Below, piece after piece: positions 15,376 to 64,000 of a stretch of DNA of 64,000 nt. The position numbers and the translations under genes were made by a program. The number at the start of each line of letters is the position of its first letter. Position 1 is the stretch's first letter. The stretch is from Aquabacterium humicola (GTDB lineage Bacteria; Pseudomonadota; Gammaproteobacteria; Burkholderiales; Burkholderiaceae_C). The notes beneath the pieces were generated by a model. The model ran no database searches. It had not been told where the DNA came from and was given only the letters and a program-made list of their open reading frames with translations. The stretch covers positions 868,001 to 932,000 of the forward strand of contig NZ_JARGNB010000002.1 in the NCBI RefSeq assembly GCF_030167915.1, given 5' to 3'.

Positions 15376-15815
15376 GGGGTGCTGTCCTGCGCGGGCGGGT
15401 CGCTCGAAGGGGCTGCCCACACCGCGCCCAGCAGGCGATCGGTGAGCGACGGTCCGATCAGGCTGCCGAGCAACTCCTGGAGCGTCGCCAGCAGGGCATT
15501 GCCGACCTGCAGGGCCTCGGTGCGGCCTTGCGCGGAGACGATGGCGCGCAGTGCCGCGAGGTCGGTCAGGCCGTCGGCGTCATCGTCCACCTTCGACAGG
15601 CAGGGGTGCGTCGCGGCCGCGAGGTGGAGGCTGCGCCGCAGCAGCGCGGCGACGCCGCGGCGCCCGATGATGGGGGCGAGGGCCGCGCCGACCTGCTGCC
15701 AGGTCGCGACCAGCGCCTCGGCCACCTCCGCGGCGCCGGCGCCGGACCCGACCCGGCGGGTCAGGGGCGCGGCGGCGCTGTCGGGGGGGGGCACATCAAA
15801 AGAAGGTGTAGTCAC
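15372..15815 (-). CDS. Hypothetical protein coupled to the KaiC-like gene
   Basis: The 147-residue predicted helical, soluble protein (core SLHLAAATHPCLSKV and ALRAIVSAQG) has no family I recognise. Its stop overlaps the kaiC-like start (ATGA), and its start is a GTG at 15815 without a clear ribosome site, so the true start may be slightly downstream. Being first in a three-gene operon with a KaiC-like ATPase and a GGDEF-kinase, it may be a partner or adaptor of the ATPase, which is inference from coupling only. Confidence 0.68.
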   Translation of the reverse strand: MTTPSFDVPPPDSAAAPLTRRVGSGAGAAEVAEALVATWQQVGAALAPIIGRRGVAALLRRSLHLAAATHPCLSKVDDDADGLTDLAALRAIVSAQGRTEALQVGNALLATLQELLGSLIGPSLTDRLLGAVWAAPSSDPPAQDSTP

Positions 15816-42764: not shown

Positions 42765-44959
42765 TGGAAGCCGCGCTGCAGGAGCCCTTGCCGGCCGCCG
42801 AAGCCGCCGGCTGGCGCTACGAAACCGATGCGCTGGCGCAGGCGATCGCCTGGCTGACGAGGCACCATGGCCGCGAACGCTCGGTCGAGTCGCTGCTCGC
42901 CGACCAGCCGGTGTCCGGGGCCCTCACGCCCGGCCTCGCGCTGCGCGTGCTCGACGACGCCGGCTACAACGCCGGCGTGATCGAGCGGCGCCTGGCCGAG
43001 CTGCACGAGCTGCTGCTGCCGGCGGTGCTGCTGTGCCGCGACGGCTCGGCGCTGATCCTGATCCGCCGGGATGCCGCCAGTGGCCGGTGCGACGTCGTCG
43101 TGCCCGGCAAGCCCTGGCTGCAGCGCTCGGTGATCGAGGCCGACCTGGCGCGCGACTACACCGGCCGCGCGCTGGTCGCGACGCCGCGGATCGACGCCCG
43201 CGCGACCCGGCTCGATGCCTCGCTCGCCGAGCCCGGCCGCCACTGGCTGTGGGGCACGCTGCGCCGCTTCCTGCCGTACTACCGCTCGGCGCTGCTCGCG
43301 GCGCTGCTGTCGAACGCGCTGATGCTGGTCACCGGGCTCGTGACCTCGGTGGTCTACGACAAGGTCATCCCGAACAAGGCGCTGGTGACGCTGTGGGCCT
43401 TGGCGGCGGCGGGCGGCATCGCGCTCGTCTTCGACCTGGCGGCGCGGCAGCTGCGCGCCTACCTGATCGACCTCGCCGGCCGCAAGACCGACCTGCTGGT
43501 GGGCTCCGCGCTCTTCCGCCAGAGCCTCGCGGTGCGCATGGAGCAGCGGCCCAACTCGTCCGGTGCCTATGCCCACATCCTCGGCCAGATCGAGACCGTG
43601 CGCGAGTTCTTCTCGTCGGCCACCTTGTCGGCGATCTCGGACCTGCCGTTCATCGTGATCTTCGTCGCGATGACCTTCCTGATCGGCGGCCCGCTCGGCT
43701 GGGTGCTGCTGATCACGATCCCCATCATCCTGGGCATCGCGCTGATGATCCAGGGCCGGCTGCGGCGTGCGATGTCGGCGAACATGGAGCAGCTCGCCGA
43801 CCTGCACGGCGTGCTGGTCGAAGCCGTCGACGGCATGGAAGACCTGAAGGCCGCCGGCGCGCAAGGGCGCTTCCTGCAGCGCTTCGAGGCCTCGAACGCC
43901 GCGGCCGCCGAATCGATGCTGCGCTCGCGCCGCATCAGTGCGTGGACCATCAACCTGACCTCGGTCGCGCAGCAGGTGGTGACGCTGGTGATGCTGGTCT
44001 GGGGCGTGCATCTGATCCAGGACAAGGTGATCACCGGCGGCGCGCTGATCGGCGCGGTGATGTTCGCGATGCGCGGCATCGCGCCGCTGACCTCCATCGT
44101 GATGCTGGCCACGCGCTTCCAGGGCGCGCTGGCGGCGATGCGCGCGCTCGACCGCGTGATGCAGCAGCCCACCGAGCGCGATGCCGGCAAGACCTACCTG
44201 CCGCCGCGCACCTTCACCGGCCGCCTCGGCCTGCACGACGCGAGCTTCGCCTACCCGCCGCCGGCGGACGACCCCGGCGCGCCGACGCCACGCGTGCTGA
44301 AGAACGTCACGCTGCAGTTCGCGCCCGGCGAACGCGTCGCGATCCTCGGCCGCATCGGCAGCGGCAAGTCGACCATCCTGCGCCTGCTCGCCGGGCTGTA
44401 CCAGCCGAGCGAAGGCCAGGTCGAGGTCGACGGCATCGACCTGCGCCAGGTCGACCCCGCGGACTACCGCGCGCAGGTCGGCTTCGTCGCGCAGGATCCG
44501 CGCCTGTTCAACGGCACGCTGCGCGACAACGTGCTGCTCGACCGCCCCGCGGCCGATCCGGCGCGGCTGGCCGAGGTGGCGCAGCTGACGGGCCTCGCGC
44601 GCCTGGTGGCCGCTCATCCTCAGGGTTGGGAACTGCCGGTCGGCCAGGCGGGCTCGCTGCTGTCGGGCGGCCAGCGCCAGCTGGTCGCGCTGGCCCGCTG
44701 CCTGATCACGCGGCCGAAGATGCTGCTGATGGACGAGCCGACGAGCTCGATGGACGCGCAGTCCGAAGCCGCGTTCCTGAAGCAGCTGCATGAGGCCACC
44801 TGCGCGACGGCCGGCGACTGCACGCTGCTGGTCGTCACGCACCGCCCGGCGGTGCTGGAACTGGTGAACCGCGTGATCGTCGTCGACGGCGGCCGCGTGG
44901 TGCTCGACGGGCCGAAGGCCCAGGTGCTGGCGGCGCTGGCCGGCAAGGGGAACGGCTGA
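42764..44959 (+). CDS. Type I secretion ABC transporter (LapB/HlyB-like permease-ATPase)
   Basis: The 731-residue protein has an N-terminal C39-like domain (about residues 20-140) without the catalytic Cys, a six-helix membrane domain (about 165-450, with GGALIGAVMFAMRGIAPL) and an ATPase with Walker A GRIGSGKS near residue 529, signature LLSGGQRQLVAL, Walker B MLLMDEPTSSMD and the H-loop THR. This fits the LapB/RTX class that exports giant adhesins or toxins. The start at 42764 overlaps the glycosyltransferase stop and its stop overlaps the HlyD-type gene; no TolC or RTX substrate gene is in the window. Confidence 0.92.
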   Translation: MEAALQEPLPAAEAAGWRYETDALAQAIAWLTRHHGRERSVESLLADQPVSGALTPGLALRVLDDAGYNAGVIERRLAELHELLLPAVLLCRDGSALILIRRDAASGRCDVVVPGKPWLQRSVIEADLARDYTGRALVATPRIDARATRLDASLAEPGRHWLWGTLRRFLPYYRSALLAALLSNALMLVTGLVTSVVYDKVIPNKALVTLWALAAAGGIALVFDLAARQLRAYLIDLAGRKTDLLVGSALFRQSLAVRMEQRPNSSGAYAHILGQIETVREFFSSATLSAISDLPFIVIFVAMTFLIGGPLGWVLLITIPIILGIALMIQGRLRRAMSANMEQLADLHGVLVEAVDGMEDLKAAGAQGRFLQRFEASNAAAAESMLRSRRISAWTINLTSVAQQVVTLVMLVWGVHLIQDKVITGGALIGAVMFAMRGIAPLTSIVMLATRFQGALAAMRALDRVMQQPTERDAGKTYLPPRTFTGRLGLHDASFAYPPPADDPGAPTPRVLKNVTLQFAPGERVAILGRIGSGKSTILRLLAGLYQPSEGQVEVDGIDLRQVDPADYRAQVGFVAQDPRLFNGTLRDNVLLDRPAADPARLAEVAQLTGLARLVAAHPQGWELPVGQAGSLLSGGQRQLVALARCLITRPKMLLMDEPTSSMDAQSEAAFLKQLHEATCATAGDCTLLVVTHRPAVLELVNRVIVVDGGRVVLDGPKAQVLAALAGKGNG

Positions 44960-46197
44960 TGGGCTGGTTCGGTGCACGGTCGTCGAACGGCGCGGTCGAG
45001 CTGCGCGCCGACGAGCTGGCCTATGTCTCGCTGCAGGACGCGGCGCAGATCGCCGAGCCGGCGCGTGCCGCCAGCTGGGCGCTGTGGCTGATGACGGCGG
45101 CGCTGGCCGCCGGCGTCGGCTGGTCGACCCTGGCGCGGGTCGACATGATCACCCGCGGCGATGCCCGCGTGATCCCCGAGGGCCGCGAGCAGGTCATCGC
45201 CAGCCTCGAAGGCGGCATCCTGCGTGAGCTTCTCGTGCGCGAAGGTGATGCGGTGAAGGCCGGCCAGCCGCTGGCGCTGCTGGACCCGACGCGCGTGGAG
45301 TCGGTGCAGGCCGAAGGCCAGGTCAAGCGCCTGGCGCTGCGCGCGGCGATCGCCCGCGCGCAGGCCGAGACCAGCGGCCAGCCGCTGCGCTTCGGCCCCG
45401 AGCTGAAGGCTGCGAAGTCGCCGGTGGCCGCCGAGACCGCGTCCTACCAGGCGCGCCAGCGCGGGCTGCAGGAAGCGCTGGTGATGAACCAGCGCAACCT
45501 GGCGCTGCTGGAGAAGGAGCTGGCGGTCGCCGAGTCGATGTCCGCCAAGGGCCTGATGAGCGAGGTCGAGGTGATGCGCGTGCGGCGCCAGGTCAACGAC
45601 CTGAACCTGCAGACGCAGGAGCGCGTGAACCGCTTCCGCCAGGAGGCCAGCGCCGAGCTCGCGCGGCTGCAGACCGAGCTGACGCAGCTGGAGGAGAACC
45701 TCGTCGTGCGCGACGACGCGGTCAGGCGCACGACGCTGGTGTCGCCGGTGAACGGCCTCGTCAAGCAGATCCGCAACCACACGGTCGGCGGCATCGTCGG
45801 TCCCGGTGCGGCGCTGCTGGAGATCGTGCCGGTGGGCGAGAAGGTGCTGGTCGAGATGCGGGTCAAGCCCGGCGAGATCGGCTTCCTGAAGGTCGGCCAG
45901 ACCGCCGAGGTCAAGCTTGCCGCCTACGACTTCACCGTCTACGGCAGCCTGACCGGCAAGGTGGTGTCGATCAGCCCCGATGCGCTGGGCGACCCCGAAC
46001 GCGCCGCGGCGCCGGACGCCACCTGGTACCGCGCGTTCGTCGAGGCGGACCGCTCGACCCTGCAGGCCGGCGGCAAGCCGCTGGCGGCGATCCCCGGCAT
46101 GACCGGCACCGCCGAGGTCAACGTCGGCGAACGCACGGTGCTGAGCTACCTGCTGCGCCCGATGATGAAGGCGCGCGAGGCGTTCCAGGAGCGCTGA
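44959..46197 (+). CDS. HlyD/LapC-type membrane fusion protein of type I secretion
   Basis: The 412-residue protein has a cytoplasmic tail, one membrane helix (about residues 40-58), a biotinyl-lipoyl-like half motif (LEGGILRELLVREGDAVKAG), a long coiled coil (residues about 110-265) and a C-terminal beta domain (VEMRVKPGEIGFLKVGQTAE). It bridges the ABC transporter to an outer-membrane TolC-type channel. Coupled to the ABC gene by TGATG. Confidence 0.93.
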   Translation: MGWFGARSSNGAVELRADELAYVSLQDAAQIAEPARAASWALWLMTAALAAGVGWSTLARVDMITRGDARVIPEGREQVIASLEGGILRELLVREGDAVKAGQPLALLDPTRVESVQAEGQVKRLALRAAIARAQAETSGQPLRFGPELKAAKSPVAAETASYQARQRGLQEALVMNQRNLALLEKELAVAESMSAKGLMSEVEVMRVRRQVNDLNLQTQERVNRFRQEASAELARLQTELTQLEENLVVRDDAVRRTTLVSPVNGLVKQIRNHTVGGIVGPGAALLEIVPVGEKVLVEMRVKPGEIGFLKVGQTAEVKLAAYDFTVYGSLTGKVVSISPDALGDPERAAAPDATWYRAFVEADRSTLQAGGKPLAAIPGMTGTAEVNVGERTVLSYLLRPMMKAREAFQER

Positions 46198-47673: not shown

Positions 47674-48270
47674 ATGACGAATGTCGCCGCTCCCGCCCGC
47701 ACCAACGAGGAACTCGCCCGCCTGCTCGGCCGCGTCGCGCTGCAGGACCGGCGCGCGTTCGAGGCCGTCTACCGGCTCACCTCGGCCCATCTGCTGGGCC
47801 TGGCCGAAGGCGTGCTGGGTCGCCGCGACCGCGCCGAGGACGTGCTGCAGGAGGCGTTCATGAACGTCTGGTACGGCGCGGCCGGCTTCAACCCGGCGAT
47901 CGCGACGCCGATGACCTGGCTCATCAACATCGTGCGCAACAAGGCGATCGACAAGCTGCGCAGCGGCAAGACGGAGCGCGCGTCGACCGTCGAGCTCGAC
48001 GACGAAGCGATGGCCGTGCCGGCCGACGCGTCGTCGCAGCCGCAGGCGCTGTTCGACGACAGCATCAAGAAGCTCCACATCGAGGCCTGCATGGGCGAGC
48101 TCACCGCGCAGCAGCGCCAGGCCATCGCGCTGGCCTACTACCGCGGCCTCGTGCACACCGAGATCGCCGAGGCGCTGCACGCGCCGCTGGGCACCGTGAA
48201 GGCCTGGGTGCGGCGTGGCGTCGACAGGCTGAAGAGCTGCCTCGAGGCGGCTGGGGTGCAGGCCGCATGA
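47674..48270 (+). CDS. ECF-family RNA polymerase sigma factor (SigK/RpoE-like)
   Basis: The 198-residue protein has sigma region 2 (LGRRDRAEDVLQEAFMNVWY) and region 4 (LTAQQRQAIALAYYRGLVHT followed by EIAEALHAPLGTVKAWVRRG), separated by a short linker, and lacks region 3, as ECF factors do. It is coupled by ATGA to an RskA-like anti-sigma factor, so it is probably held inactive at the membrane until a signal destroys or alters the partner. Confidence 0.93.
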   Translation: MTNVAAPARTNEELARLLGRVALQDRRAFEAVYRLTSAHLLGLAEGVLGRRDRAEDVLQEAFMNVWYGAAGFNPAIATPMTWLINIVRNKAIDKLRSGKTERASTVELDDEAMAVPADASSQPQALFDDSIKKLHIEACMGELTAQQRQAIALAYYRGLVHTEIAEALHAPLGTVKAWVRRGVDRLKSCLEAAGVQAA

Positions 48271-49022
48271 ACTACCTGCATCCGCCCCGGCTGGACGCGC
48301 TGGCGCGCGACTACGCGCTCGGCACGATGACCGGCGCCGCGCGCCGCCGTTTCGAGCGCGTGATGCGCGACCACGCCGCCGCGCGCGGCGCGGTGATGCA
48401 GTGGTCCGGCCGGCTCGCACACCTGGCGAATTCGATCCCGCCGTCGCCGCCGAGCGACGCGGTATGGGCCGGGCTGCAGCAGCGGCTGTTCCCGGGCGAG
48501 GCCGCGCGCGCTCACGAAGCGCAGCAACCGTGGTGGCGCGCCTGGTTCGGCGCCAACACCTGGCGCGGCGCGGCCGGTGGCGTGCTGGCCGGGCTGGCGC
48601 TGTGCCTCGTGGTCGTGCGCCAGCAGCCGGAGTGGCTGGGCGTCGAGGTGCGCGAGGAAGCGCTGCCGCAGAGCTACGTGGGCCTCTTGAGCAATGCCCA
48701 GGGCGTGCCGTCGGTGTTGGCGAGCTCGCGCCGCCAGGGCCGGCAGCTCAGCGTGAAGCTGCTGCAGCCGCTGGTCATCCCCGCGGGCCGCGTCGCGCAG
48801 CTGTGGGCGCTGCCGAAGGAGGGCGCGCCGTTCCCCATCGGCGTGGTGCCGGCGGGCGTGGCGCAGGGCAAGTCGGTGGTACTGCCGTTGAGCGACACCT
48901 CGGAGAAGCTCTTCTTCACCGTGCCGCGGCTGGGCGTCAGCTTCGAGGCCGCTGCGGCGGCGCCGGGTGCGTCGCCGAGCGGCGAGTTCGTGCTGTCCGG
49001 GCCCTGCGTGAAGCTCTGGTAG
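48267..49022 (+). CDS. RskA-type anti-sigma factor
   Basis: The 251-residue protein has a cytoplasmic N-terminal anti-sigma domain (LDALARDYALGTMTGAARRR), one membrane helix (about residues 98-114) and a periplasmic RskA domain (GRVAQLWALPKEGAPFPIGV ... SFEAAAAAPG). It should hold the upstream ECF sigma factor at the inner membrane. The start overlaps the sigma gene stop (ATGA). Confidence 0.9.
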   Translation: MNYLHPPRLDALARDYALGTMTGAARRRFERVMRDHAAARGAVMQWSGRLAHLANSIPPSPPSDAVWAGLQQRLFPGEAARAHEAQQPWWRAWFGANTWRGAAGGVLAGLALCLVVVRQQPEWLGVEVREEALPQSYVGLLSNAQGVPSVLASSRRQGRQLSVKLLQPLVIPAGRVAQLWALPKEGAPFPIGVVPAGVAQGKSVVLPLSDTSEKLFFTVPRLGVSFEAAAAAPGASPSGEFVLSGPCVKLW

Positions 49023-51308: not shown

Positions 51309-52289
51309 ATGCCTGCCGCCCCGGTTCGCCTGTCGATGCGCACGCACGCCGCGCCGCTGCGGCGCCGGACGCTGGAACGCATGCGGCGCTGTGTGCCGGT
51401 GGCGCTGGCGGCCGGCCTGCTGGCGGGCCTGGTGTCGCTCGCGCAGGCCTCGACCGATTCGTTCACGCTGCGCAAGATCCGCGAGGTCGGCGTGATCTCG
51501 ATCGGCTACCGCGACGCGTCGGTGCCGTTCTCCTACCTCGACGAGCAGCAGCGGCCGATCGGCTATTCGATGTCGATCTGCGACCACGTGGTGCAGGCGG
51601 TGAAGGCCAAGCTGAACCTGCGCGAGCTCGAGGTCCGCTACCTGCCGGTCAGCTCGGCCACGCGCATTCCGCTGGTGGCCAACGGCAGCGTCGACCTGGA
51701 ATGCGGCGTGACGACCAACAACGTCGAGCGCCAGCGCAAGGTGGCCTTCAGCGTCACCACCTTCGTCGCCGCGAGCAAGCTGCTGTCGAAGAAGTCGCAG
51801 CCGGTGGTCCGCATCGACGACCTGCGCGGCAAGGTCGTCACCTCGACCGTCGGCACCACCTCGCTGCGCTACCTGCAGGAGCTGGCCGACGAACGCGGGC
51901 TGGACATGCGCATCATCGCGGCGAAGGACGATGCCGAGGCCTTCCGCCTCGTCGAGACCGGCCGCGCCACCGCCTATGCGATGGACGACGTGCTGCTGCG
52001 CGGCACCATCGCCGCCGCACGCACACCCGAGGCCTACCAGGTGTCGGAGGAAGCGCTGTCGGTCGAGCCCTACGGGATCATGCTCAACCGCGACGATCCC
52101 GAGTTCAAGCGCCTCGTCGACGACACCATCGTCGGCCTGTTCAGGAGCGGCGAGATCCACAAGCTGTACCGGCGCTGGTTCCAGTCGACCATCCCCGGCG
52201 GCATCAACCTCGGCCTGCCGATGCACCCGTCGATGCGGCGGGTGGTCGACAAGCCGACCGATTCGGGCGACCCGGCGCTGTACCGCTAG
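51309..52289 (+). CDS. Amino-acid-type ABC substrate-binding protein (GltI-like), orphan
   Basis: The protein is up to 326 residues with a signal peptide around residues 25-47 (VALAAGLLAGLVSLAQA) and a family-3 binding domain close to glutamate/aspartate-binding proteins: GVISIGYRDASVPFSYLD, GSVDLECGVTTNNVERQ and AYAMDDVLL. ATG codons at 51309, 51336 and 51381 all fit; none has a clear ribosome site. A hairpin (CCCGCA-CAA-TGCGGG) abuts the first ATG. No transporter permease or ATPase follows; instead a kinase gene starts 29 bp downstream, so it may feed a signal rather than uptake. Confidence 0.84.
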   Translation: MPAAPVRLSMRTHAAPLRRRTLERMRRCVPVALAAGLLAGLVSLAQASTDSFTLRKIREVGVISIGYRDASVPFSYLDEQQRPIGYSMSICDHVVQAVKAKLNLRELEVRYLPVSSATRIPLVANGSVDLECGVTTNNVERQRKVAFSVTTFVAASKLLSKKSQPVVRIDDLRGKVVTSTVGTTSLRYLQELADERGLDMRIIAAKDDAEAFRLVETGRATAYAMDDVLLRGTIAAARTPEAYQVSEEALSVEPYGIMLNRDDPEFKRLVDDTIVGLFRSGEIHKLYRRWFQSTIPGGINLGLPMHPSMRRVVDKPTDSGDPALYR

Positions 52290-52318: not shown

Positions 52319-53520
<1,202 letters not shown>

Positions 53521-53521
<1 letters not shown>

Positions 53522-53579: not shown

Positions 53580-54764
53580 ATGAGCGCCTCGCTGCTGCTG
53601 ATCGAGGACAACCCGGGCGATGCGCGCCTCATCGCCGCGCTGCTCGAGGACGCCGCGGCCTTCGGGCTGGCGACCACGCTGGTCACCGTCGACACGCTGG
53701 CCGCCGGCATCGAGCGCCTGCGCCCCGGCGGCTTCGAGCTGGTGCTGCTGGACCTCGGGCTGCCCGAGAGCAGTGGCCTGGAGACCGTGCAGCGCCTGCG
53801 CACCGCGGTGCCACGGCTGCCGCCGCTGGTGGTGCTGAGCGGCCTGAACGACGAGGACGTCGCCGTGCAGGCGTTGCAGGCGGGCGCGCAGGACTACCTC
53901 GTCAAGGGCCGTGTCGAACCCAGCGCCCTGGCGCGGGCGATCCGCTACGCGCTCGGTCGCCACCAGGCCGAGCAGGCGCTGAAGAACGAGCTCGAGCGCT
54001 CGCGCGAGCTGGCCACCGAACGCGCGGCCCGCGCGCGCGTCGAAGGTGAGTCCGAAAGCCTGCGCCGGCTGCTCGACGAGCGCGACCAGCTGCTGCGCCT
54101 GCTCGCGCACGAGGTGCGCCAGCCGCTGCACAACGCCGGCGCCGCGCTGCAGAGCGCGCTCGACGCCATCGCCGGGGCCGGCACGGCCGCGCCGCCGGGC
54201 GTGCAGCCACCGCTTCAGCATGCGCAGCAGGTGATGGCGCATGTCATCGGCACGCTGAACAACGCGCTGGCCGCTGCGCTGCTGCTGACCGCCGGGGGGC
54301 ACGGCGTGCCGGTCGACACGGACCTCGATACGCTGGTCGCGCTGGTGCTCGGCGACATCGGGCCCGAGGACCGCGGCCGCGTCGCGCTGTCGATCGACAG
54401 CGGGCTGCGCACCGCGCAGCTGCAGCCGACGCTGATGCGGCTGGCGCTGTGCAACCTGCTGGTGAACGCGCTGAAGTACTCGCCGGCGCCGGCACCGGTG
54501 CAGCTGCGCATCGTCGACCGCGACGATCCGCCGGCGCTCGGCTTCGAGGTCAGCGATCTCGGCAGCGGCATCGATGCCGCGCTGCTGCCCACCGTGTTCG
54601 ATCGCGGCACCCGCGGCCCGGATGCGCGCCCCGGCACCGGGGCCGGGCTGGGCCTGTACATCGTGCGGCAGGTGACCGACATGCACCGCGGCAGCATCGT
54701 GATCGAGCCCAACCTGCCCCACGGTACGATCGTGCGCATGTGGATTCCGCAGGGCGAAGGATGA
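53580..54764 (+). CDS. Receiver-histidine kinase hybrid
   Basis: The 394-residue protein has an Rcp-like receiver (IEDNPGDARL, D58, K109) and then a helical linker and kinase with LAHEVRQPLHNAG (His177), N box CNLLVNALKYS, DLGSGI and GAGLGLYIV. The HisKA motif is divergent (HEVRQPL). It is coupled by ATGA to the OmpR-type regulator, its most likely phosphorylation partner. Confidence 0.88.
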   Translation: MSASLLLIEDNPGDARLIAALLEDAAAFGLATTLVTVDTLAAGIERLRPGGFELVLLDLGLPESSGLETVQRLRTAVPRLPPLVVLSGLNDEDVAVQALQAGAQDYLVKGRVEPSALARAIRYALGRHQAEQALKNELERSRELATERAARARVEGESESLRRLLDERDQLLRLLAHEVRQPLHNAGAALQSALDAIAGAGTAAPPGVQPPLQHAQQVMAHVIGTLNNALAAALLLTAGGHGVPVDTDLDTLVALVLGDIGPEDRGRVALSIDSGLRTAQLQPTLMRLALCNLLVNALKYSPAPAPVQLRIVDRDDPPALGFEVSDLGSGIDAALLPTVFDRGTRGPDARPGTGAGLGLYIVRQVTDMHRGSIVIEPNLPHGTIVRMWIPQGEG

Positions 54765-55450
54765 CCCTTCCGCACAAGCTCGCCATCATCGACGACGACC
54801 GCGACCATGCCGCCTACCTGGCGGAGCACCTCGGCCAGCGCGGCGTCGAGGTCATGGTGTTCCACGACAGCGACGAGTTCCTGACCTCGCCGCAGGCCTT
54901 CGAGTTCGAGTTCTACGTCATCGACCTGATGCTGCCGGGCATCGACGGCGTCGACCTGATCCGCCTGGTGCGCCGCCGCGGCAACGCCGGCATCGTCGTC
55001 GTCTCCGGCCGCATGGATGCGGACGTGTTCGACTCGGTGATGCGCAACGGCGCCGACATGCACCTGATGAAGCCGGTGCGCATGGAGCAGGTGGCGCTGG
55101 CGATCGAAGCGGTGCAGCGGCGCATCGAGGCCGGCCGCGCGCAGGCCGGCGCCTGGCGGCTGGACCGCAAGGCGCGGCAGCTGATCGCGCCCGAGGGCAC
55201 GCGCATCGACCTGAGCGACAACAACCTCGCTGTCATCGAGTGCTTCGTCGACGCGCAGGGCGAGACCGTGACGCACGGCATGCTGTGCGAGCGCCTCGGC
55301 CGCGACCCGGCCCAGGAGGCCGACAACCTGCTGCACGCGGCCATCTACCGCCTGCGCCGGCGCATCGAGCGCGCGACGCCGGCCAGCGTGCCGCTGCAGG
55401 TCGAGCCGCGCGTCGGTTATGCCTTCCGGGGCACGCTGACGGCCGTCTGA
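54761..55450 (+). CDS. OmpR-family response regulator
   Basis: The 229-residue protein has a receiver with phospho-acceptor D55 (YVIDLMLPGIDG) and K104, then a winged-helix DNA-binding domain (NLAVIECFVDAQGETVTHGM, VGYAFRG at the end). It starts within the stop of the preceding kinase gene. It ends 34 bp inside the convergent small gene at 55417. Confidence 0.92.
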   Translation: MTLPHKLAIIDDDRDHAAYLAEHLGQRGVEVMVFHDSDEFLTSPQAFEFEFYVIDLMLPGIDGVDLIRLVRRRGNAGIVVVSGRMDADVFDSVMRNGADMHLMKPVRMEQVALAIEAVQRRIEAGRAQAGAWRLDRKARQLIAPEGTRIDLSDNNLAVIECFVDAQGETVTHGMLCERLGRDPAQEADNLLHAAIYRLRRRIERATPASVPLQVEPRVGYAFRGTLTAV

Positions 55451-55743
55451 GCCGCGGCGCCGGCGCCGTGCTCGACCGGCCCCGGCTGCTGCAGCCCGTG
55501 GCCGAGCGTCTCGGTGACCACCGCGATGTCGCGCGCGACGCCCGAGACCTCGGCCAGCACCGCCGCCAAGGTGGCGGCCGGCGCCTGCAGGCGCGGGTCG
55601 CGCCGGACCAGCGCGAGCACCGTCTCGAGCTCGTTGCACAACATCTGCAGCTGCTCGCCCTGGACCGCGACCATCGCCAGGCGTGCCACCATCTGCCGGG
55701 CGGCGCGCGGGTCGCGGGCCGGCACGCCGTCAGGCCGCTGCAC
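55417..55743 (-). CDS. Small helical protein overlapping the chemoreceptor gene
   Basis: The frame of 108 residues from a GTG at 55743 (or about 91 from the ATG at 55692) encodes an alpha-helical protein ([20 protein letters not shown]). It overlaps the chemoreceptor stop by 14 bp and the OmpR gene end by 34 bp on the other strand. Absence of known domain and the overlaps lower confidence; the helix pattern and coupling to the receptor suggest it may be real, perhaps an accessory chemotaxis protein. Confidence 0.5.
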
Positions 55744-57391
55744 GGGGCGCCTCCTGCAGCCGGAAGCTGCCGATCACGCGGGTGAGGCCCTCGGCCTGCT
55801 GGCGCAGGCTCTCGGCGGCGGCGGCGCTTTCCTCGACCAGCGCGGCGTTCTGCTGCGTGCCGTTGTCCAGCGACGTGACGGCCTGGTTGACCTGCACGAT
55901 GCCGGCGCTCTGCTCGGTCGTCGCGGCGTCGATCTCGGCGATCAGCTCGGTCACCCGCGACACCTGCTGCACCACCTCCGCCATCGTCGCGCCGGCCTGG
56001 TCCACCAGCGCGCTGCCGCCGTGCACGCGGTCGACCGAGTTGCCGATCAGCGCCTTGATTTCCCGCGCGGCCTGCGCGCTGCGCTGGGCGAGCGTGCGCA
56101 CCTCGCCGGCCACCACCGCGAAGCCGCGGCCGGCCTCGCCGGCGCGCGCCGCCTCGACGGCCGCGTTCAGCGCCAGGATGTTGGTCTGGAAGGCGATGCC
56201 GTCGATGACGCCGATGATGTCGGCGATCTGCGCGCTGGACTCGCTGATCTGCTTCATCGTCGCGACGACCTGCTGCACCACGTCCCCGCCGCGGCCGGCC
56301 ACCGCGGCGGCCGCGGTGGCGAGCTGGTTGGCCTGGCGTGCGCTGTCGGCATTCGTGCGCACGGTCTCGGTCATCTGCTGCATCGACGCCGCGGTCTGCT
56401 GCAGCGCGCTCGCCTGCTGCTCGGTGCGGCCGGACAGGTCGGCGTTGCCGGTGGCGATCTGCGCCGACGCGGTCGCGATGCACTCGGCGCTGAGGCGCAC
56501 CTGGCCGATCAGCGCAACCAGGTTGCGCTGCATCTGGCCCATCGACGCCAGCACGCACCCGGCGCGCGCGGCGTCGGCACCGGGCACCGGGCGCAGGTCG
56601 CCGGCGGCCACGCGCTGCGCGGCCTCGCCCAGCTCGGCGGGCTCGGCGCCCAGCGCGCCGACCAGGCGCCGCGTGATCAGCAGCCCGAGCACCGACGACA
56701 CCAGCACGGCCAGGCCGCAGGCGACCGCCAGCAGCGCGCGGTTGGTCTCGTAGTGGGACTCCGCGTCCTTCACCGCCTGCTGGGCTTGCGCGCGGCCATG
56801 CTCGGCGAAGCCGGTCGAAGCCTTGCGCAGCGTCTCCAGCAGCGGCAGGGCGCGCCGGCGCAGCTCGGCGTACGCGGCCTCGCGCTGGCCGGCCATCGCC
56901 TGATCGACGATCGCCCGTGCGATCGGCACGTAGGCGGTCTCGATGCGTTCCATCTCGGCCACATGCTCGATGTCCTTCGGGTCGACGGTGTGTGCGCCGC
57001 GCACGCGCGCTGACAAGTCGGCCAGCGCCTTGCCCAAATCGTCCTGGGCCGAGTCGATCGCCTTCTGCGCGGCGGCGCGCTGGGCCGGCTCGTCGGCCAG
57101 CATCACGTCGCGCAGGGCGATGGCTCGCCGGTTGGCCGCCGCGCGCACCTCCACCGCGAGGTGTTCCTGCGCCAGCTCCTCGTGCACGAAGCTGCGGAAG
57201 TCGTCGTTCGAGTCCCGCAGCGAACGCAGGCTCAGCAGCGCCACCAGCACCAGCAGCAGCGTCAGCGCGGCGAATGCCAGCCCCAGCTGCATGCGCACCG
57301 TCATCGGCGTGCGTCCGCGTGCCCGGTCGGCCGCCGTTACCGTTGCCTCGCCCCCGGCCGCGCGGCCGCCTGCTTCGAGTGCCCTAACCAT
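55730..57391 (-). CDS. Methyl-accepting chemotaxis protein
   Basis: The 553-residue receptor has a cytoplasmic N-terminus, membrane helix 1 near residues 36-55, a four-helix periplasmic sensor domain, helix 2 near 218-240, a HAMP region, and the signalling hairpin with the invariant tip [20 protein letters not shown]. Methylation helices rich in Glu/Gln/Ala flank it. There is no C-terminal NWETF-type tether. ATG 57391 has AAGGAGA seven bases upstream. It is divergent from the Rcp-type regulator. Confidence 0.93.
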
Positions 57392-57508: not shown

Positions 57509-57533
57509 TGATCAGTTGAATCAGAACTGATCA
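57509..57533. promoter_or_regulatory. Perfect 9-bp-arm inverted repeat overlapping a -35 region
   Basis: TGATCAGTT, a 7-base spacer, then AACTGATCA. The spacer contains part of the -35 hexamer of the promoter below, so a dimeric protein bound here would block it. Confidence 0.7.
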
Positions 57534-57544
57534 AAGACTAGAAT
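57516..57544 (+). promoter_or_regulatory. Sigma-70-like promoter for the Rcp/kinase/TonB receptor genes
   Basis: TTGAAT, a 17-bp spacer, then TAGAAT; 4/6 and 5/6 matches with ideal spacing. Predicted transcription starts near 57551, about 160 bp before the regulator ATG. Confidence 0.6.
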
Positions 57545-57713: not shown

Positions 57714-58166
57714 ATGGCCGACTTCGAGAGCCTGCGTGCCATCGAGATCCTGATGGTCGAGGACAACCCCGGCGACGTGCGCCTGACGCGCGAGGCCTTC
57801 AAGGACGGCCGCGTGTGGAACCGCCTGCACGTGGTCGAGGACGGCCTGCTGGCAATGGACTTCCTGTACCGCCGGCCGCCCTTCGAAGAAGCGCCGCGGC
57901 CCGACATCATCCTGCTCGACCTCAACCTGCCGCGCATGGACGGCCGCGAGGTGCTCGCGGCGATCAAGTCCGACCCCGCGCTGCGCATCATCCCGGTCGT
58001 CGTGCTGACCACCTCGCAGGCCGAGGAAGACGTGCTGCGCGCCTACCACCTGAACGCCAACTGCTACGTCACCAAGCCGGTCGACCTGGAGCAGTTCATC
58101 CGCATCGTGCAGGCCATCGAGGATTTCTGGCTCACCGTCGTGCGCCTGCCCCTGTCGCCTCCCTAG
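57714..58166 (+). CDS. Rcp1-type single-domain response regulator
   Basis: The 150-residue receiver has [15 protein letters not shown], phospho-acceptor D69 ([16 protein letters not shown]), a Thr pair and [12 protein letters not shown]. This is the form that partners bacteriophytochrome-type kinases. It is first in the run that continues with a receiver-kinase 18 bp later. ATG 57714 follows a GGAGCCGCGAG element; an in-frame ATG at 57573 would add a non-family tail. Confidence 0.9.
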
Positions 58167-58184
58167 CTGTCGAAAGGAGCGTCC

Positions 58185-59279
58185 ATGTCCAAGCCGATCC
58201 ATGTGCTGCTGATCGAGGACAACCCGGCCGATGCGCGGCTGCTGGCCGAGATGCTCGTGGAGCTCGGTGCCGAGGGCCTGGACTGCGAGCTGGCCTGGTC
58301 GCAGACGCTGGAAGCCGGCCGACGCCGGCTGGAGGACGATCACCCGGTCGACGTGGTGCTGCTCGACCTGGGCCTGCCCGGCTCCAGCGGCCTGCCGACG
58401 CTGCGGCGGCTGCTCGAAGGCGGCCGCTGCCGGCCCGCGCTGCTGGTGTGCACCGGCGTGGGCGACGAGGAGCTCGCGCTGCAGGCGCTGCAGGCCGGCG
58501 CCCAGGACTACCTCGTCAAGGGCCAGATCGACGCACCGGTGCTGGCGCGCGCGATCCGCCGCGCGCTCGGCCGCGCCCAGTCCGAACGCGACCGGCGCAC
58601 CTTCCTCGCCGGCATCAGCCACGAGCTGCGCACGCCCTTGTCGGGCATCCTCGGCTTCGCGCAGCTGATGCAGCTCGACGAGGCGCTGCCCGATCGCCAC
58701 CGCCATGCCGCCCGCATGATCCAGTCCAGCGGCGAGCACCTGCTCGCGCTGATCAACGACATCCTCGACCTCGCCAAGGCCGAGGCGGGCCGCCTGGAGC
58801 TCGATCGCCATGCCTTCGAGCTGCCGTCGCTGGTGCAGCTGGTGGCCGGCATCGCCCGCGTCAAGGCGATGCAGAAGCCGCAGCTGGTGCTGGGCGTGGA
58901 CCTCGCGCCCGAGCTGCCGCGCCAGGTGCAGGGCGACGAGCAGCGCCTGCGCCAGGTGCTGCTGAACCTGCTGGACAACGCGGTCAAGTTCACCGATGCC
59001 GGCGCGGTGACGCTGCGCCTGCGCGCCGCCGGCCCCGCCCGCATCGCCTGCGAGGTCGAGGACACCGGCGTCGGCCTCACCGACGAGCAGCGCGCGCGGC
59101 TGTTCCAGCCCTACGAGCAGGTCGGCGACGGCAGCCAGCGGCGGCAGGGCACGGGGCTGGGCCTGGCGATCTCGCGCCAGCTGGTGCGCCTGATGGGCGG
59201 CGAGCTGCGGGCGAGCCCGCGCGAGGGCGGCGGCAACCGCTTCGCCTTCGAAGTGGACCTCGAGCCTGCGGAGGCGTGA
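58185..59279 (+). CDS. Receiver-histidine kinase hybrid coupled to a TonB-dependent receptor
   Basis: The 364-residue protein has an N-terminal receiver (IEDNPADARLL, D61, K112) and a kinase with SHELRTPLSGILGF (His146), NLLDNAVKF, DTGVGL and GTGLGLAIS. AAAGGAGC precedes the ATG. Its stop shares a base with the TonB-dependent receptor start (TGATG). The SHELRTPLSGILGFA stretch is nearly the same as in the TPR-PAS-kinase downstream, pointing to shared ancestry or exchange. Confidence 0.92.
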   Translation: MSKPIHVLLIEDNPADARLLAEMLVELGAEGLDCELAWSQTLEAGRRRLEDDHPVDVVLLDLGLPGSSGLPTLRRLLEGGRCRPALLVCTGVGDEELALQALQAGAQDYLVKGQIDAPVLARAIRRALGRAQSERDRRTFLAGISHELRTPLSGILGFAQLMQLDEALPDRHRHAARMIQSSGEHLLALINDILDLAKAEAGRLELDRHAFELPSLVQLVAGIARVKAMQKPQLVLGVDLAPELPRQVQGDEQRLRQVLLNLLDNAVKFTDAGAVTLRLRAAGPARIACEVEDTGVGLTDEQRARLFQPYEQVGDGSQRRQGTGLGLAISRQLVRLMGGELRASPREGGGNRFAFEVDLEPAEA

Positions 59280-61840
59280 TGGCGGCCCGGTGTGCGCTGG
59301 TGCCCGCGCTGGCACTGGCGGCGGCGGTGCCCGAGGCGCCAGCGCAGCCCGTGCCTGTCGAGCCGGCCGGCAGCGTGGTGGTGGTCGGCCGGCGCGAGAG
59401 CCTGGCCGCGGGCCTGGCCCTGAAGCGCCACCGCGAGGAGATCAGCGACGCGGTGGTCGCCGACGAGATCGGCAAGTTGCCCGACTTCAACCTCACCGAG
59501 GCGCTGCAGCGCATCACCGGCGTGCAGGCCGCGCGCGACCGCGGCGAGGGCGCCGGCCTCACCGTGCGCGGGCTGACGCAGGTGGAGGCGACACTCAACG
59601 GCCGCGAGATCTTTACCGCCGGCACCGGCCGCACGCTCGACTTCGCCGACCTGCCGTCGGAAATGATCGCCACCGCGACGGTGTTCAAGTCGGCCTCGGC
59701 CGAACAGCTCGAGGGCGGTGTCGGCGGGCTGGTCGACCTGCGCACGCGCCGGCCCTTCGACTTTCCCGGCCAGGCGGGCGTGCTGTCGCTGCGCGCGGTG
59801 CACGGCGACCTGGCCCGCCGCACCGAGGGCCAGGCCTCGGCGCTGTGGAGCGGGCGCTGGCAGGCCGGCGGCGGCGAGTTCGGCGTGCTGCTGAACGCGT
59901 CGCTGCAGCAGCGCGCCTTCCGCGAGGACCTCAAGGGCACCGGCAACCCGCAGCGGCGCGACGACCTCGTGCCCGGCCGCACCGTCACCGTCGCCTCGTC
60001 GACCAGCGAGACCAGCAGTGCCGGCACACGGCGCCGCGGCACCGGCTCGCTGATCGCGCAGTGGCGGCCGGCGGCCGGCTGGCTGCTGCAGGGCGAGGCG
60101 CACCTGGCGGAGTTTCGCACGCGCCAGGATTCGCAGCAGATCAACCTCGGCAGCGGCCGGTCCGTCGAGCCCGGCAGCGTGCAGCTCTTCGACGGCAGCA
60201 GCGACGTGCGCCGCATCACCTGGCTGGACGCCCCGGTGTCGGTGCTGAGCTTCGCGCGCGACACGGTCGACCGGCTGCAGCAGGCCGCCCTGGCCGTGCA
60301 GCGCGAGGCCGACGGCGTGCGCTGGAGCGCCGACCTGAGCCACACCCGCAGCTTCAACAGCCTGTACTTCAGCGGCCCGGTGTTCGGCGGCCGCGTCGCG
60401 AGCTTCACCCACGACCTGTCGGGCCCGGTGCCGGCCACGGCCGTCGCCGGCACCGACCTGCTCGATCCGTCGAACCTGCGCTACACGCTGCTCGCGCTGC
60501 GCACGCGCGTCTTCGAGGGCACGCTCGATGCGGCGCGCGCCGACGTGCAGTGGCAGCGCACGGGCTGGCTGCACACGGTCGCCGCCGGCCTGCGCAGCGC
60601 GCGGCGCGCAGCGGGCAATGCCCCCGGCCTGATCTTCGCCGACGCGGCGCTGACCGGCCCGTCGGCGGCGCAGACGCCCGACCGCGTGCAGCCCAACCCG
60701 TATGCCGACTTCCTGCCCGGCTCGACCAGCATCGGCCGCTTCCTGACCGGCCGCCTCGACGACGCACGCGACGCGCAGGCGCTGCGCGATGCCTTCGGCG
60801 TCGCGACGCCGGTGCCGCTGTCGGCCAATCCGCTGAGCCTGTGGCAGATCGACGAGCGCACCGACGCGGCCTACCTGATGGGCCGCTTCGACACCGGCGC
60901 GGTCGACGGCAATGCCGGCCTGCGCGTCGTGCACACGCGCCTCGGCGTGTCCGGCTGGCGATCGGTGCCGGCCAGCGGCGGCGTCGAGCCGCTGGCGGTG
61001 GAGCGGGCCAAGACCGACTGGCTGCCGAGCCTGAACCTGCGCTGGACGCTGCGCCCGACGCTGCTGGCGCGGCTGGCCCTGTCGAAGACCCTGGCGCGGG
61101 CGAACTTCGACCAGCTGTCGCCGTCGCTGTCGCTGCTGCGCAATCCGGTGAACCCGTCGCTGAACCAGGGGGCCGCCGGCAACCCGGACCTGCGGCCGGT
61201 GCGTTCGGACAACCTCGACCTCGCGCTGGAGTTCATGCCGCGCAGCGGCAGCGCGCTGCATGCCACCGCGTTCGCCAAGCGTGTCGACGGCTTCCCGGCG
61301 AACGCCAGTGCGTCGGAGACGCACGACGGCGTGGTCTACCTCGTCACCCGGCCCTACAACAGCGGGGCCGCGCGCATCGACGGCCTGGAGCTCGGCGGGC
61401 AGCACTTCCTCGACACGCTGCCGGGCGCCTGGCGCGGGCTCGGCGTGCAGGCCAACATCACCTGGCTGCACAGCCGCACCGACGACCGCCTGCTCGGCGC
61501 CGGCGTGCCGCTGCAGAACCTCTCGCGCCGCAGCGCGAACCTGATCGGCCTGTACGAGCACGGCCCCTGGTCGGCGCGGCTGGCCTGGAACTGGCGCAGC
61601 CGCTTCCTCAGCGGTGCCACGAGCGTCGTCGGCGTGGGGGTGCTGCCGAGCTACACCGAGGCCTACGGCTGGCTCGATGCCTCGCTCGCGATGAAGCTGT
61701 CGGAGCGCATCACCGTCGCGTTCGAAGGCACGAACCTGACGCGCACGCGCCGCGGCGCCAACTTCGGCTCGCCGCTGCGGCCGCAGAGCAACCTGCTCAA
61801 TGATCGGCAGCTCGGCGCGCGCCTGACGGTGCAGCTCTGA
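59279..61840 (+). CDS. TonB-dependent outer-membrane receptor (TIGR01782-like)
   Basis: The 853-residue protein has a signal peptide (ALAAAVPEAPAQ), a plug domain (VADEIGKLPDFNLTEALQRI, LTVRGLTQVEATLNGREI, VFKSASAEQLEGGVGG) and a 22-strand-type barrel ending in ARLTVQL with a terminal hydrophobic residue. The plug wording matches the Xanthomonas/Caulobacter group of receptors often tied to carbohydrate uptake. It overlaps the kinase upstream and the TPR-PAS-kinase downstream by one base each (TGATG). Confidence 0.9.
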   Translation: MAARCALVPALALAAAVPEAPAQPVPVEPAGSVVVVGRRESLAAGLALKRHREEISDAVVADEIGKLPDFNLTEALQRITGVQAARDRGEGAGLTVRGLTQVEATLNGREIFTAGTGRTLDFADLPSEMIATATVFKSASAEQLEGGVGGLVDLRTRRPFDFPGQAGVLSLRAVHGDLARRTEGQASALWSGRWQAGGGEFGVLLNASLQQRAFREDLKGTGNPQRRDDLVPGRTVTVASSTSETSSAGTRRRGTGSLIAQWRPAAGWLLQGEAHLAEFRTRQDSQQINLGSGRSVEPGSVQLFDGSSDVRRITWLDAPVSVLSFARDTVDRLQQAALAVQREADGVRWSADLSHTRSFNSLYFSGPVFGGRVASFTHDLSGPVPATAVAGTDLLDPSNLRYTLLALRTRVFEGTLDAARADVQWQRTGWLHTVAAGLRSARRAAGNAPGLIFADAALTGPSAAQTPDRVQPNPYADFLPGSTSIGRFLTGRLDDARDAQALRDAFGVATPVPLSANPLSLWQIDERTDAAYLMGRFDTGAVDGNAGLRVVHTRLGVSGWRSVPASGGVEPLAVERAKTDWLPSLNLRWTLRPTLLARLALSKTLARANFDQLSPSLSLLRNPVNPSLNQGAAGNPDLRPVRSDNLDLALEFMPRSGSALHATAFAKRVDGFPANASASETHDGVVYLVTRPYNSGAARIDGLELGGQHFLDTLPGAWRGLGVQANITWLHSRTDDRLLGAGVPLQNLSRRSANLIGLYEHGPWSARLAWNWRSRFLSGATSVVGVGVLPSYTEAYGWLDASLAMKLSERITVAFEGTNLTRTRRGANFGSPLRPQSNLLNDRQLGARLTVQL

Positions 61841-64000
61841 TGCCCCGGCACCTGCACCGCGCCTGCGCGAGCGCGCTGCTGGGCCTGGCCGCCGTCGCGG
61901 CCGGCGCCGGTCCGCTGGAAGACTGGCGCGCGCAGGCCGAGCGGGTGCGCGCGCTGGCCGACAACGACGTGCCGCGCGCCCATGCCGAGGCGCTGGGCCT
62001 GCAGCAGGCGCTGCCGCCCGATGCCACGCTGGCCGATCGCGCGAAGGCGCTGAACGTGCGCGCGCGCACAGAGACCTACCTGGGGATGACCGAGGCGGCG
62101 GCCCGGCATGCGGGCGAGGCCTTCGCGCTGGCGAGCCAGGCCCACGACCGTGTGGGCCAGGCCGAGTCGGACCTCGTGGTGGTGCTGAACTCGATCAACC
62201 AGGGCCGGCTCGACGAGCTGGTGAAAGCCACGCAGCGTGCCGTCGTCACGCTGGAGGGCGTGACCGACCGGCCCGACCTGCTGGCGGAGGCGATGCTGCG
62301 GCTGGCCGTGATGTACCGCCGCTTCGAGCAGATCGACGAGTCGGTCCAGGTGGCGATGCAGACGATGGAGATCGCCCGCCGCTCCGGGCATCCGATGGCC
62401 CTGGTGCTTGCGCACCAGGGGCTGGCGCTGGCGTACGGGCAGAGCGGCCGGCAGGGTGAATCGTTGGACCACCTGGAGCAGGCGCGGCTGCAGGCGCGCA
62501 AGGTGCCCACGCGCATGCTCGAGGCCTTCGCCACCGCCGGCATGGCGGGCGACCTGCGCAACCGCGGCGACCTCGAGCGCGCCGAGCAGCTGGCCCGCGA
62601 GGCGCTGGCGATGCACCGCGAGGTCGGCGCGCCGTTCGCGATCAGCTTCGGCCTGTACGGCCTGGCGGACGTGCTGTCGGCCCGCGGCCGCCCGCAGGAG
62701 GCGCTGCAGCTGCTCGACGAATCGGTGGGCATCTACGATCGCCACCCCAATCCGATCGGCCAGTGGTTCTCGCTGAACGCGCGCAGCGCGACGTACCAGG
62801 CGCTGGGCGACCCGGCGCGCGCGCTGGCCGATGCACAACGCGGTTATGGTCTGGCGCAGCAGCTGGGGCACCCGGTCTATCTCAGCGGCAGCGCGAGCCG
62901 GCTGTCCGCGCTTGCCGCGAAGGCGGGCGACTTCAAGCGCGCCTACGAGCTGGCGGTGGAGGCCGCGCAGATGACGAGCAAGGCGGTGCGCGACAAGGCC
63001 GGCGCCCGCATGCTGCAGCTGACCCAGCGCTACGAGAGCGAAAGCAAGCAGCGCGCGATCGACGAGCTGCGGCGGCAGACCGAACAGCAGCAGGCGCAGC
63101 TCCGGCAGCGCGAGCTGCAGCAGCGCTGGCTGTGGACGCTGCTGGCCGCGGTGGCGATGGCGCTGGCGGGCGCCGCGCTGCACGTGCGCCGGTCGCGCCA
63201 GGCGCAGCGCGCGCTGCAGGCGCTGAACGAGCAGCTGCAGGCGTCGGAGAACGCCGTGCGTGCGCTCAACACCGAGCTCGAGCAGCGCGTGAACCAGCGC
63301 ACCGATGCGCTGCGCCGCCAGGCCCGCTACCTGCGCACGCTGATCGACATGCTGCCGATGTGGACCTGGTTCAAGGACACCGGCAGCCGCTACCTGGTGA
63401 CCAACCGCGCCCACGCCCAGGCCCACCGGCGCGAGGTCGACGAGGTGATCGGCCGCACCGACGCCGAGCTCCAGGCCGACGGCGCGGCGCAGGCTTCGCT
63501 GGCCGACGATGCCGAGGTGATGGCCTCGGGCAGGCGCATGACCGTCGAGCAGGCGGTGGGCGAGGGCGACGCGACGCGCTGGATGGAGGTGTTCAAGGCG
63601 CCGGTCAGCGACGAGGACGGCACGTTGCTGGGCACCGTCGGCGTCGCGCGCGACATCAGTGCGCAGAAGGCCGCCGAGGCGGCGCGCGAATCGGCGCTGG
63701 CGGAGGCCGAACGCCTCGCGCAGCTGCGCAGCGACTTTCTCGCGCGCATGAGCCACGAGCTGCGCACGCCGCTGTCGGGCATCCTGGGCTTCGCCGAACT
63801 GCTGCGCACGGAGGCCCCGCTGGGCGAGCGCCAGGAACGCTGCGTGCGCATCATCCAGCAGAGCGGGCAGCACCTGCTGAACCTGATCAACGACCTGCTG
63901 GACATGTCGCGCATCGATGCCGGACGGCTGGAGCTGCATCCGACACCGGTGCGGCTGGCTGGCTTCGTGCACGCGGTCGGCGACATCGTGGCCGTCAAGG
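61840..64000 (+). CDS. Periplasmic-TPR, PAS, histidine kinase (cut by window end)
   Basis: At least 720 residues are visible. Residues 1-24 are a signal peptide. Residues 25 to about 425 are TPR-like hairpins facing the periplasm, then comes a membrane helix at about 430-449, a coiled coil, a PAS domain (from about residue 500; WTWFKDTGSRYLVTN), and HisKA with SHELRTPLSGILGFAELL (His639). The ATPase domain, and any receiver, lie beyond the end. The start overlaps the TonB receptor stop (TGATG). It may sense the receptor or its ligand in the periplasm. Confidence 0.9.
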   Translation, partial: MPRHLHRACASALLGLAAVAAGAGPLEDWRAQAERVRALADNDVPRAHAEALGLQQALPPDATLADRAKALNVRARTETYLGMTEAAARHAGEAFALASQAHDRVGQAESDLVVVLNSINQGRLDELVKATQRAVVTLEGVTDRPDLLAEAMLRLAVMYRRFEQIDESVQVAMQTMEIARRSGHPMALVLAHQGLALAYGQSGRQGESLDHLEQARLQARKVPTRMLEAFATAGMAGDLRNRGDLERAEQLAREALAMHREVGAPFAISFGLYGLADVLSARGRPQEALQLLDESVGIYDRHPNPIGQWFSLNARSATYQALGDPARALADAQRGYGLAQQLGHPVYLSGSASRLSALAAKAGDFKRAYELAVEAAQMTSKAVRDKAGARMLQLTQRYESESKQRAIDELRRQTEQQQAQLRQRELQQRWLWTLLAAVAMALAGAALHVRRSRQAQRALQALNEQLQASENAVRALNTELEQRVNQRTDALRRQARYLRTLIDMLPMWTWFKDTGSRYLVTNRAHAQAHRREVDEVIGRTDAELQADGAAQASLADDAEVMASGRRMTVEQAVGEGDATRWMEVFKAPVSDEDGTLLGTVGVARDISAQKAAEAARESALAEAERLAQLRSDFLARMSHELRTPLSGILGFAELLRTEAPLGERQERCVRIIQQSGQHLLNLINDLLDMSRIDAGRLELHPTPVRLAGFVHAVGDIVAVK

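Follow-up and report, generated by a model that had tools for sequence, protein, structure and literature searches.

A gene for a TonB-dependent receptor (TBDR) in Aquabacterium humicola is followed directly by one for a sensor kinase with a TPR solenoid (TPR-HK), and comparison with related genomes suggests that the two form a conserved, co-inherited unit. We interpret the locus, from its inferred function, as a variant of receptor-linked two-component signalling that is new in its TPR sensor. In the explanation that we prefer, which we put at about even odds (a probability of roughly 0.5), the core of the locus is a receptor–sensor pair: the TBDR would import a substrate, and the TPR-HK would sense it and pass phosphate to separate regulators.

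Organization of the locus

The pair closes a four-gene locus at the edge of the window, by which we mean the whole stretch of 64,000 nucleotides that was analysed. The locus and the genes ahead of it are as follows (positions are those of the window).

51309–52289, plus strand: solute-binding protein (SBP_bac_3), directly 5′ of RR-HK3
52319–53521, plus strand: RR-HK3 (receiver, HisKA and HATPase_c)
53580–54764, plus strand: RR-HK2 (receiver and HATPase_c, no HisKA match), sharing 4 bases with the gene of the OmpR-type regulator
54761–55450, plus strand: OmpR-type response regulator (Pfam Response_reg and Trans_reg_C)
55730–57304, minus strand: methyl-accepting chemotaxis protein (MCP; 4HB_MCP_1 and MCPsignal), divergent from the operon
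57516–57544, plus strand: sigma-70-like promoter match TTGAAT-17-TAGAAT, 170 bases ahead of the first gene (consensus match only)
57714–58166, plus strand: single-domain response regulator, 150 aa (Pfam Response_reg), first gene of the presumed operon
58185–59279, plus strand: RR-HK1, 364 aa (Pfam Response_reg, HisKA and HATPase_c, and no further Pfam domain)
59279–61840, plus strand: TBDR, 853 aa (Pfam Plug and TonB barrel; TIGR01782)
61840 to window-equivalent 64803, plus strand: TPR-HK, 987 aa (Pfam TPR, PAS_4, HisKA and HATPase_c)

A preliminary description of this DNA had listed a regulator, which it labelled Rcp-type and for which Pfam gives Response_reg, a receiver-kinase, a TBDR and a TPR-PAS kinase, with one gap of 18 bases and two overlaps of a single base. 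Both coordinates and Pfam matches agree with this layout: the gap (58167–58184) lies between regulator and RR-HK1, and the shared bases are 59279 (RR-HK1/TBDR) and 61840 (TBDR/TPR-HK). It had also proposed reading past position 64000, where the TPR-HK crosses the window edge, and on the host contig the kinase indeed completes at 987 aa, with its stop at 64803. Behind it, on the opposite strand, lie convergent open reading frames in which CxxCH motifs can be read; we infer a transcript end there, and a scan for terminator-like sites gave none behind the TPR-HK. The promoter match was the sole one in the 10 kb scanned, against a mean of 0.1 in shuffled sequence.

Conservation and co-inheritance of the pair

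Clear orthologues of the TPR sensor numbered 11, in ten of the 399 family genomes (E ≤ 6.5e-79; next match 1.2e-13), and those of the TBDR numbered ten, in the same ten genomes, at 51–100% identity and at least 833 bits (runner-up 450 bits, 40%); as the searches scored only the few best first-look candidates per genome (4 for the sensor and 2 for the TBDR in the family, 4 or up to 9 in the wider samples), these counts could miss paralogues. With the TPR-sensor profile no full-length relative beyond the window's own was found in a sample of the order (399 genomes, some from the family), and none in a sample of the class (185 genomes), both of which yielded partial TPR matches alone (best 5.4e-14; threshold 1e-10). 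In all ten orthologous loci the TPR-HK gene lies 3′ of the TBDR gene on the same strand, at a spacing of −4 to about +96 bases when the likeliest starts are taken, and the ten genomes represent seven genera in which the further neighbours differ. Judged from these arrangements, chance is a poor account of the adjacency. The conservation survey that the preliminary description had called for upholds the TBDR/TPR-HK core; the whole four-gene order recurs in just two of the ten loci, both of one genus, in which the small regulator and RR-HK1 lie directly 5′ of the TBDR. The 19 kb examined around a TPR-HK paralogue, G066b (genome G066, locus L093, 8982–12344), contain no TBDR, and this paralogue could reveal the role of the sensor without a receptor.

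Pairwise distances among the TBDRs follow those among the TPR sensors closely (r = 0.89, nine genomes), and each follows recA more loosely (r = 0.46 and 0.43); the partial correlation of receptor and sensor given recA is 0.86 (permutation values 0.0001 and 0.0002). This comparison placed recA by tblastn and was made without G104, where no recA was found, and without the paralogue G066b, which has no TBDR. Specifically, G156 and G271 belong to different genera and are mutual nearest relatives in both TBDR and sensor, though not in recA; the same holds for G066 and G197, whereas G271 and G197 share a genus and stand far apart in both proteins. Given the distance correlation, and the closeness of G156 and G271 set against the distance between G197 and G271, the pair has apparently been inherited or moved as a unit. 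In G293 the nearest relatives differ, being G197 for the TBDR and G000 (the genome of the window) for the sensor.

A constant sensor half and a variable output half

The TPR-HK begins with a signal-peptide-like start, followed by the TPR solenoid and a presumed membrane helix, after which come PAS, HisKA and HATPase_c domains and a C-terminal tail; the start and the helix were read from the sequence rather than from a topology predictor, and we presume that the solenoid is periplasmic. AlphaFold2, applied to the window protein and one relative, predicts a TPR solenoid that continues as a long helix; pLDDT averages 86.6, falling to about 55 near residues 381–400. By E-value the solved folds nearest to the predicted sensor are the TPRs of LGN, with Rap and NprR lower; TM-scores are modest (0.3–0.6 over the query), and the structure matches, made with a predicted model, speak for the TPR fold class only. 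A profile of the 11 sensors matched the same LGN, Rap and NprR kinds at the sequence level, together with engineered TPRs, kinesin light chains and AfsR. The best-matching TPR folds are peptide- or protein-binding, not sugar-binding.

In contrast to the constant input half, the output half varies among the aligned relatives. Receivers are present in eight of the 11 TPR-HKs, and the window's copy has none: Pfam found neither a receiver nor a DNA-binding family in it. The alignment gives a PAS-kinase-tail form without receiver in G000 and G143, one added receiver in G066a and G197, a PAS-like region with two receiver-like stretches and an Hpt-like end in G293, G267 and G388, and two receivers with an Hpt-like end and no PAS in G271, G066b and G156; the G104 copy is cut short by a contig edge. 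The Pfam assignments cover three of the 11 (G000, G197 and G156), the others being judged from the alignment.

The receiver-less lineage is the one in which the small regulator and RR-HK1 lie directly 5′ of the TBDR, but with a single event, in one genus, loss of the receiver and its replacement by these two proteins are a guess. The idea that the missing receiver had itself relocated into one of the neighbouring regulators was rejected: comparison of four receivers of the hybrid relatives with the five of the cluster gave no likely source, the best match (47 of 108 positions) being with RR-HK3, a protein conserved independently.

The receptor

The TBDR scores 574.2 bits against TIGR01782 (cut-off 310) over residues 33–848, covering plug and barrel, and no solved structure related to it by sequence was found. 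In FecA/FecR/FecI-type transducers an outer-membrane receptor is tied to signalling. Unlike the receptors of that type, the present TBDR has no STN domain that Pfam could find at E 0.01, where Plug and barrel families alone matched, and its N-terminus is short in the alignment, with a brief stretch ahead of a region that we take to be TonB-box-like. Neither FecI nor FecR lies beside it, its immediate neighbours being RR-HK1 and the TPR-HK, and no FecR was found among the scanned neighbours. A sigma-70-family (ECF-like) factor gene followed, with a 4-base overlap, by an RskA-type anti-sigma gene (RskA_C) occurs at 47674–49022, about 10 kb from the TBDR; the pair is of the RskA type, not FecR.

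Other TBDRs, at 30–40% identity, sit in loci that resemble those for arabinan and galactan use (L106, L107, L113 and L114). Pfam confirmed GH53 near two of these receptors (G218 and G306; L106 and L107) and an arabinofuranosidase near a third (G111; L113), the remaining arabinan and galactan gene content being read from sequence. This hints at plant oligosaccharides as ligands of the wider TBDR group and says little on the present subfamily. Among the subset of neighbours scanned, none in the ten loci was recognisable as a glycosidase gene adjoining the pair, and neither SusD nor a polysaccharide-degrading gene was recognised at the window's locus.

Neighbouring candidate output genes

The OmpR-type regulator, about 4 kb 5′ of the TBDR in the window, is the likeliest candidate for a transcriptional output. 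It lies near the pair in four of the ten loci, the window's included, with copies 91, 75 and 68% identical in G143, G197 and G066, where RR-HK2 has copies of 82, 46 and 46% identity. Its best matches elsewhere, on other contigs, are 71% identical in G271 and 54–56% in G388, G267 and G156; none above threshold was found in the incomplete genomes G104 and G293. Within about 9 kb of the pair, G000, G066, G197 and G293 each have an MCP whose sensor is of the 4HB type, and the MCP of G143 is 78% identical. The association of MCP and pair is weak, as MCPs are common and the G197 protein aligns in its signalling half only, which makes orthology there doubtful.

Elsewhere in the window, a region that reads as flagellar holds a double-domain KaiC-type ATPase (13885–15375) flanked by open reading frames at 12238–13872 and 15372–15794. 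Downstream of motility-like genes lies a cluster (40998–46197) of a GT41/OGT-like TPR glycosyltransferase, an ABC transporter and a third gene, joined by one-base overlaps.

Proposed mechanism and alternatives

Because the two genes adjoin in ten related genomes, their products probably work jointly, telling the cell what is imported. The periplasmic location, the direction of signalling, the ligand and the phosphotransfer partners are inferred. The TBDR would carry into the periplasm a substrate that, judged from distant relatives alone, is perhaps a plant-cell-wall oligosaccharide; the TPR solenoid of the TPR-HK would detect what has been imported, either directly or by way of a carrier protein in the periplasm, and the signal would pass through the membrane helix to the PAS domain and the kinase. 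Phosphate would then move to separate response regulators, of which the OmpR-type regulator at 54761–55450 is the likeliest for gene control. In the lineage of the window, where the TPR-HK has no receiver of its own, the small regulator and RR-HK1 may be further phosphate acceptors. Weighing against the scheme are the paralogue G066b without a TBDR, the discordant nearest relatives in G293, the presence of the OmpR-type regulator near the pair in four loci of the ten, the lack of a recognised glycosidase gene among the neighbours scanned, and the preference of the best-matching TPR folds for peptides or proteins.

How far these last two belong to the system bears on an earlier proposal, that the two kinases flanking the TBDR form a unit and that their HisKA motifs are nearly the same. 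The motifs are indeed nearly equal, and yet not special: the kinase core of the TPR-HK has 125 matches in its own genome, itself included, and of the other 124 six outscore RR-HK1. As RR-HK1 is only the seventh-best match, the likeness carries little weight, and we rejected it as a tie between the two kinases. Nor is the two-kinase unit supported by comparison of genomes, as the small regulator, with relatives of RR-HK1 and RR-HK3, forms a cluster of its own in G197, 178 kb from the pair, and in G066 and G271, on other contigs, where short contigs leave a loose linkage possible. The small regulator and RR-HK1 might therefore be a separate cytoplasmic module that shares a promoter with the pair, the TBDR and TPR-HK alone cooperating; this is compatible with our preferred explanation, and we hold it tentatively, with the balance tilted slightly against it. 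The small regulator occurs at 70% identity or more in nine of the 399 family genomes, itself included, three of which (G096, G334 and G375) have no pair; however, six of the nine do hold it, where a frequency of 10 in 399 would predict about 0.2, an excess that related genera inflate. Moreover, in G293, from another genus, the same regulator/RR-HK1 module stands divergent from the pair, as does a 64% identical copy of RR-HK3. The RR-HK3 copy of G293 adjoins an SBP_bac_1 solute-binding protein, where the window has SBP_bac_3.

Other readings concern what the sensor detects, or whether the pair means anything at all. The TPR solenoid might read the TBDR itself, by the plug or TonB box on its periplasmic face, or TonB, and so report receptor occupancy rather than free substrate. 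Co-inheritance of TBDR and sensor and the resemblance of the sensor to protein- and peptide-binding TPRs are consistent with this, and the same idea has been put forward for hybrid systems and their SusC (PMC3243724); but the absence of a recognisable STN domain and the short stretch ahead of the TonB-box-like region speak against it, the sequences are too few for co-variation, and we regard it as unlikely. Still less probable, in our judgement, is a full trans-envelope switch in which the inner-membrane TPR solenoid would directly read the loaded state of the TBDR and the signal would be split among the OmpR-type regulator, the receiver-kinase relay and chemotaxis through the MCP. At a single locus, so many kinase-like genes in one genome could make receptor and kinase chance neighbours, co-transcribed by happenstance; an adjacency kept in all ten orthologous loci, across seven genera and amid otherwise different neighbours, makes such an origin very improbable. 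Furthermore, no TPR sensor match occurred in 20 loci of other TBDRs (sets of 14 and 6), and another kinase lay about 7 kb off in one of the 14 and about 3 kb off in one of the six; the set of 14 includes two near-duplicates and several short flanks, and in that set kinase matches below 80 bits were dropped.

Comparison with known receptor-linked systems

The preliminary description held that known signalling receptors use FecI/FecR systems, and saw in the locus an undescribed transport-sensing relay. Exclusive use of FecI/FecR is not supported: PfeS/PfeR serves the receptor PfeA (PMC8001512), and hybrid systems serve SusC-type TBDRs (PMC3243724). Of the relay, the conserved link between TBDR and TPR kinase stands, and the two-kinase unit finds no support. 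In Pseudomonas aeruginosa the PfeS response requires that ferric enterobactin first be imported by PfeA or PirA (PMC8001512). As in PfeA-PfeS/PfeR and PirA-PirS/PirR, the TBDR gene here adjoins a sensor-kinase gene, in all ten loci. PfeS and PirS are inner-membrane kinases that detect imported ligand in the periplasm (PMC8001512); the signal-peptide-like start of the TPR-HK and the long helix after its TPRs would fit a periplasmic sensor as well. In PfeSR-type systems an OmpR-type regulator controls the TBDR gene, a role for which the one about 4 kb 5′ of the present receptor is a candidate. Unlike PfeS and PirS, the TPR-HK carries a large TPR solenoid followed by PAS, and most of its relatives are hybrid kinases by alignment; no evidence points to iron in the present locus.

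The hybrid two-component systems of Bacteroides serve SusC-type TBDRs, and contact between sensor and SusC has already been considered there (PMC3243724). Similarly, our TBDR lies beside a kinase with a large, presumably periplasmic, sensor, and most TPR-HKs carry receivers, as noted above. In contrast to the Bacteroides hybrids, as that report portrays them (PMC3243724), the sensor is by Pfam and predicted structure a TPR and not a Reg_prop beta-propeller; where those hybrids unite kinase, receiver and DNA-binding domain in one chain, the DNA-binding domain here belongs to a different protein. OmpS, a TBDR of Alcanivorax dieselolei, reportedly senses alkanes and sets off a chemotaxis response (as cited in PMC6304351), and an MCP gene is present in our locus too; OmpS belongs to an alkane system, however, and no TPR kinase is described in the passage that cites it (PMC6304351). 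We set aside the TPR pair of PMC12282931 as a precedent, as no receptor is involved. Among the matches listed in the open-licence literature, we found no account that links a TPR-type sensor with a TBDR.

Implications

Sigma-factor systems supply the best-known outer-membrane receptors that report on import. A TPR-sensor kinase that travels with one TBDR offers a compact two-gene case in which to ask which of the two, substrate or receptor, such a kinase detects, and its changing output half shows an unchanging sensor being rewired, now to hybrid and now to split kinases.
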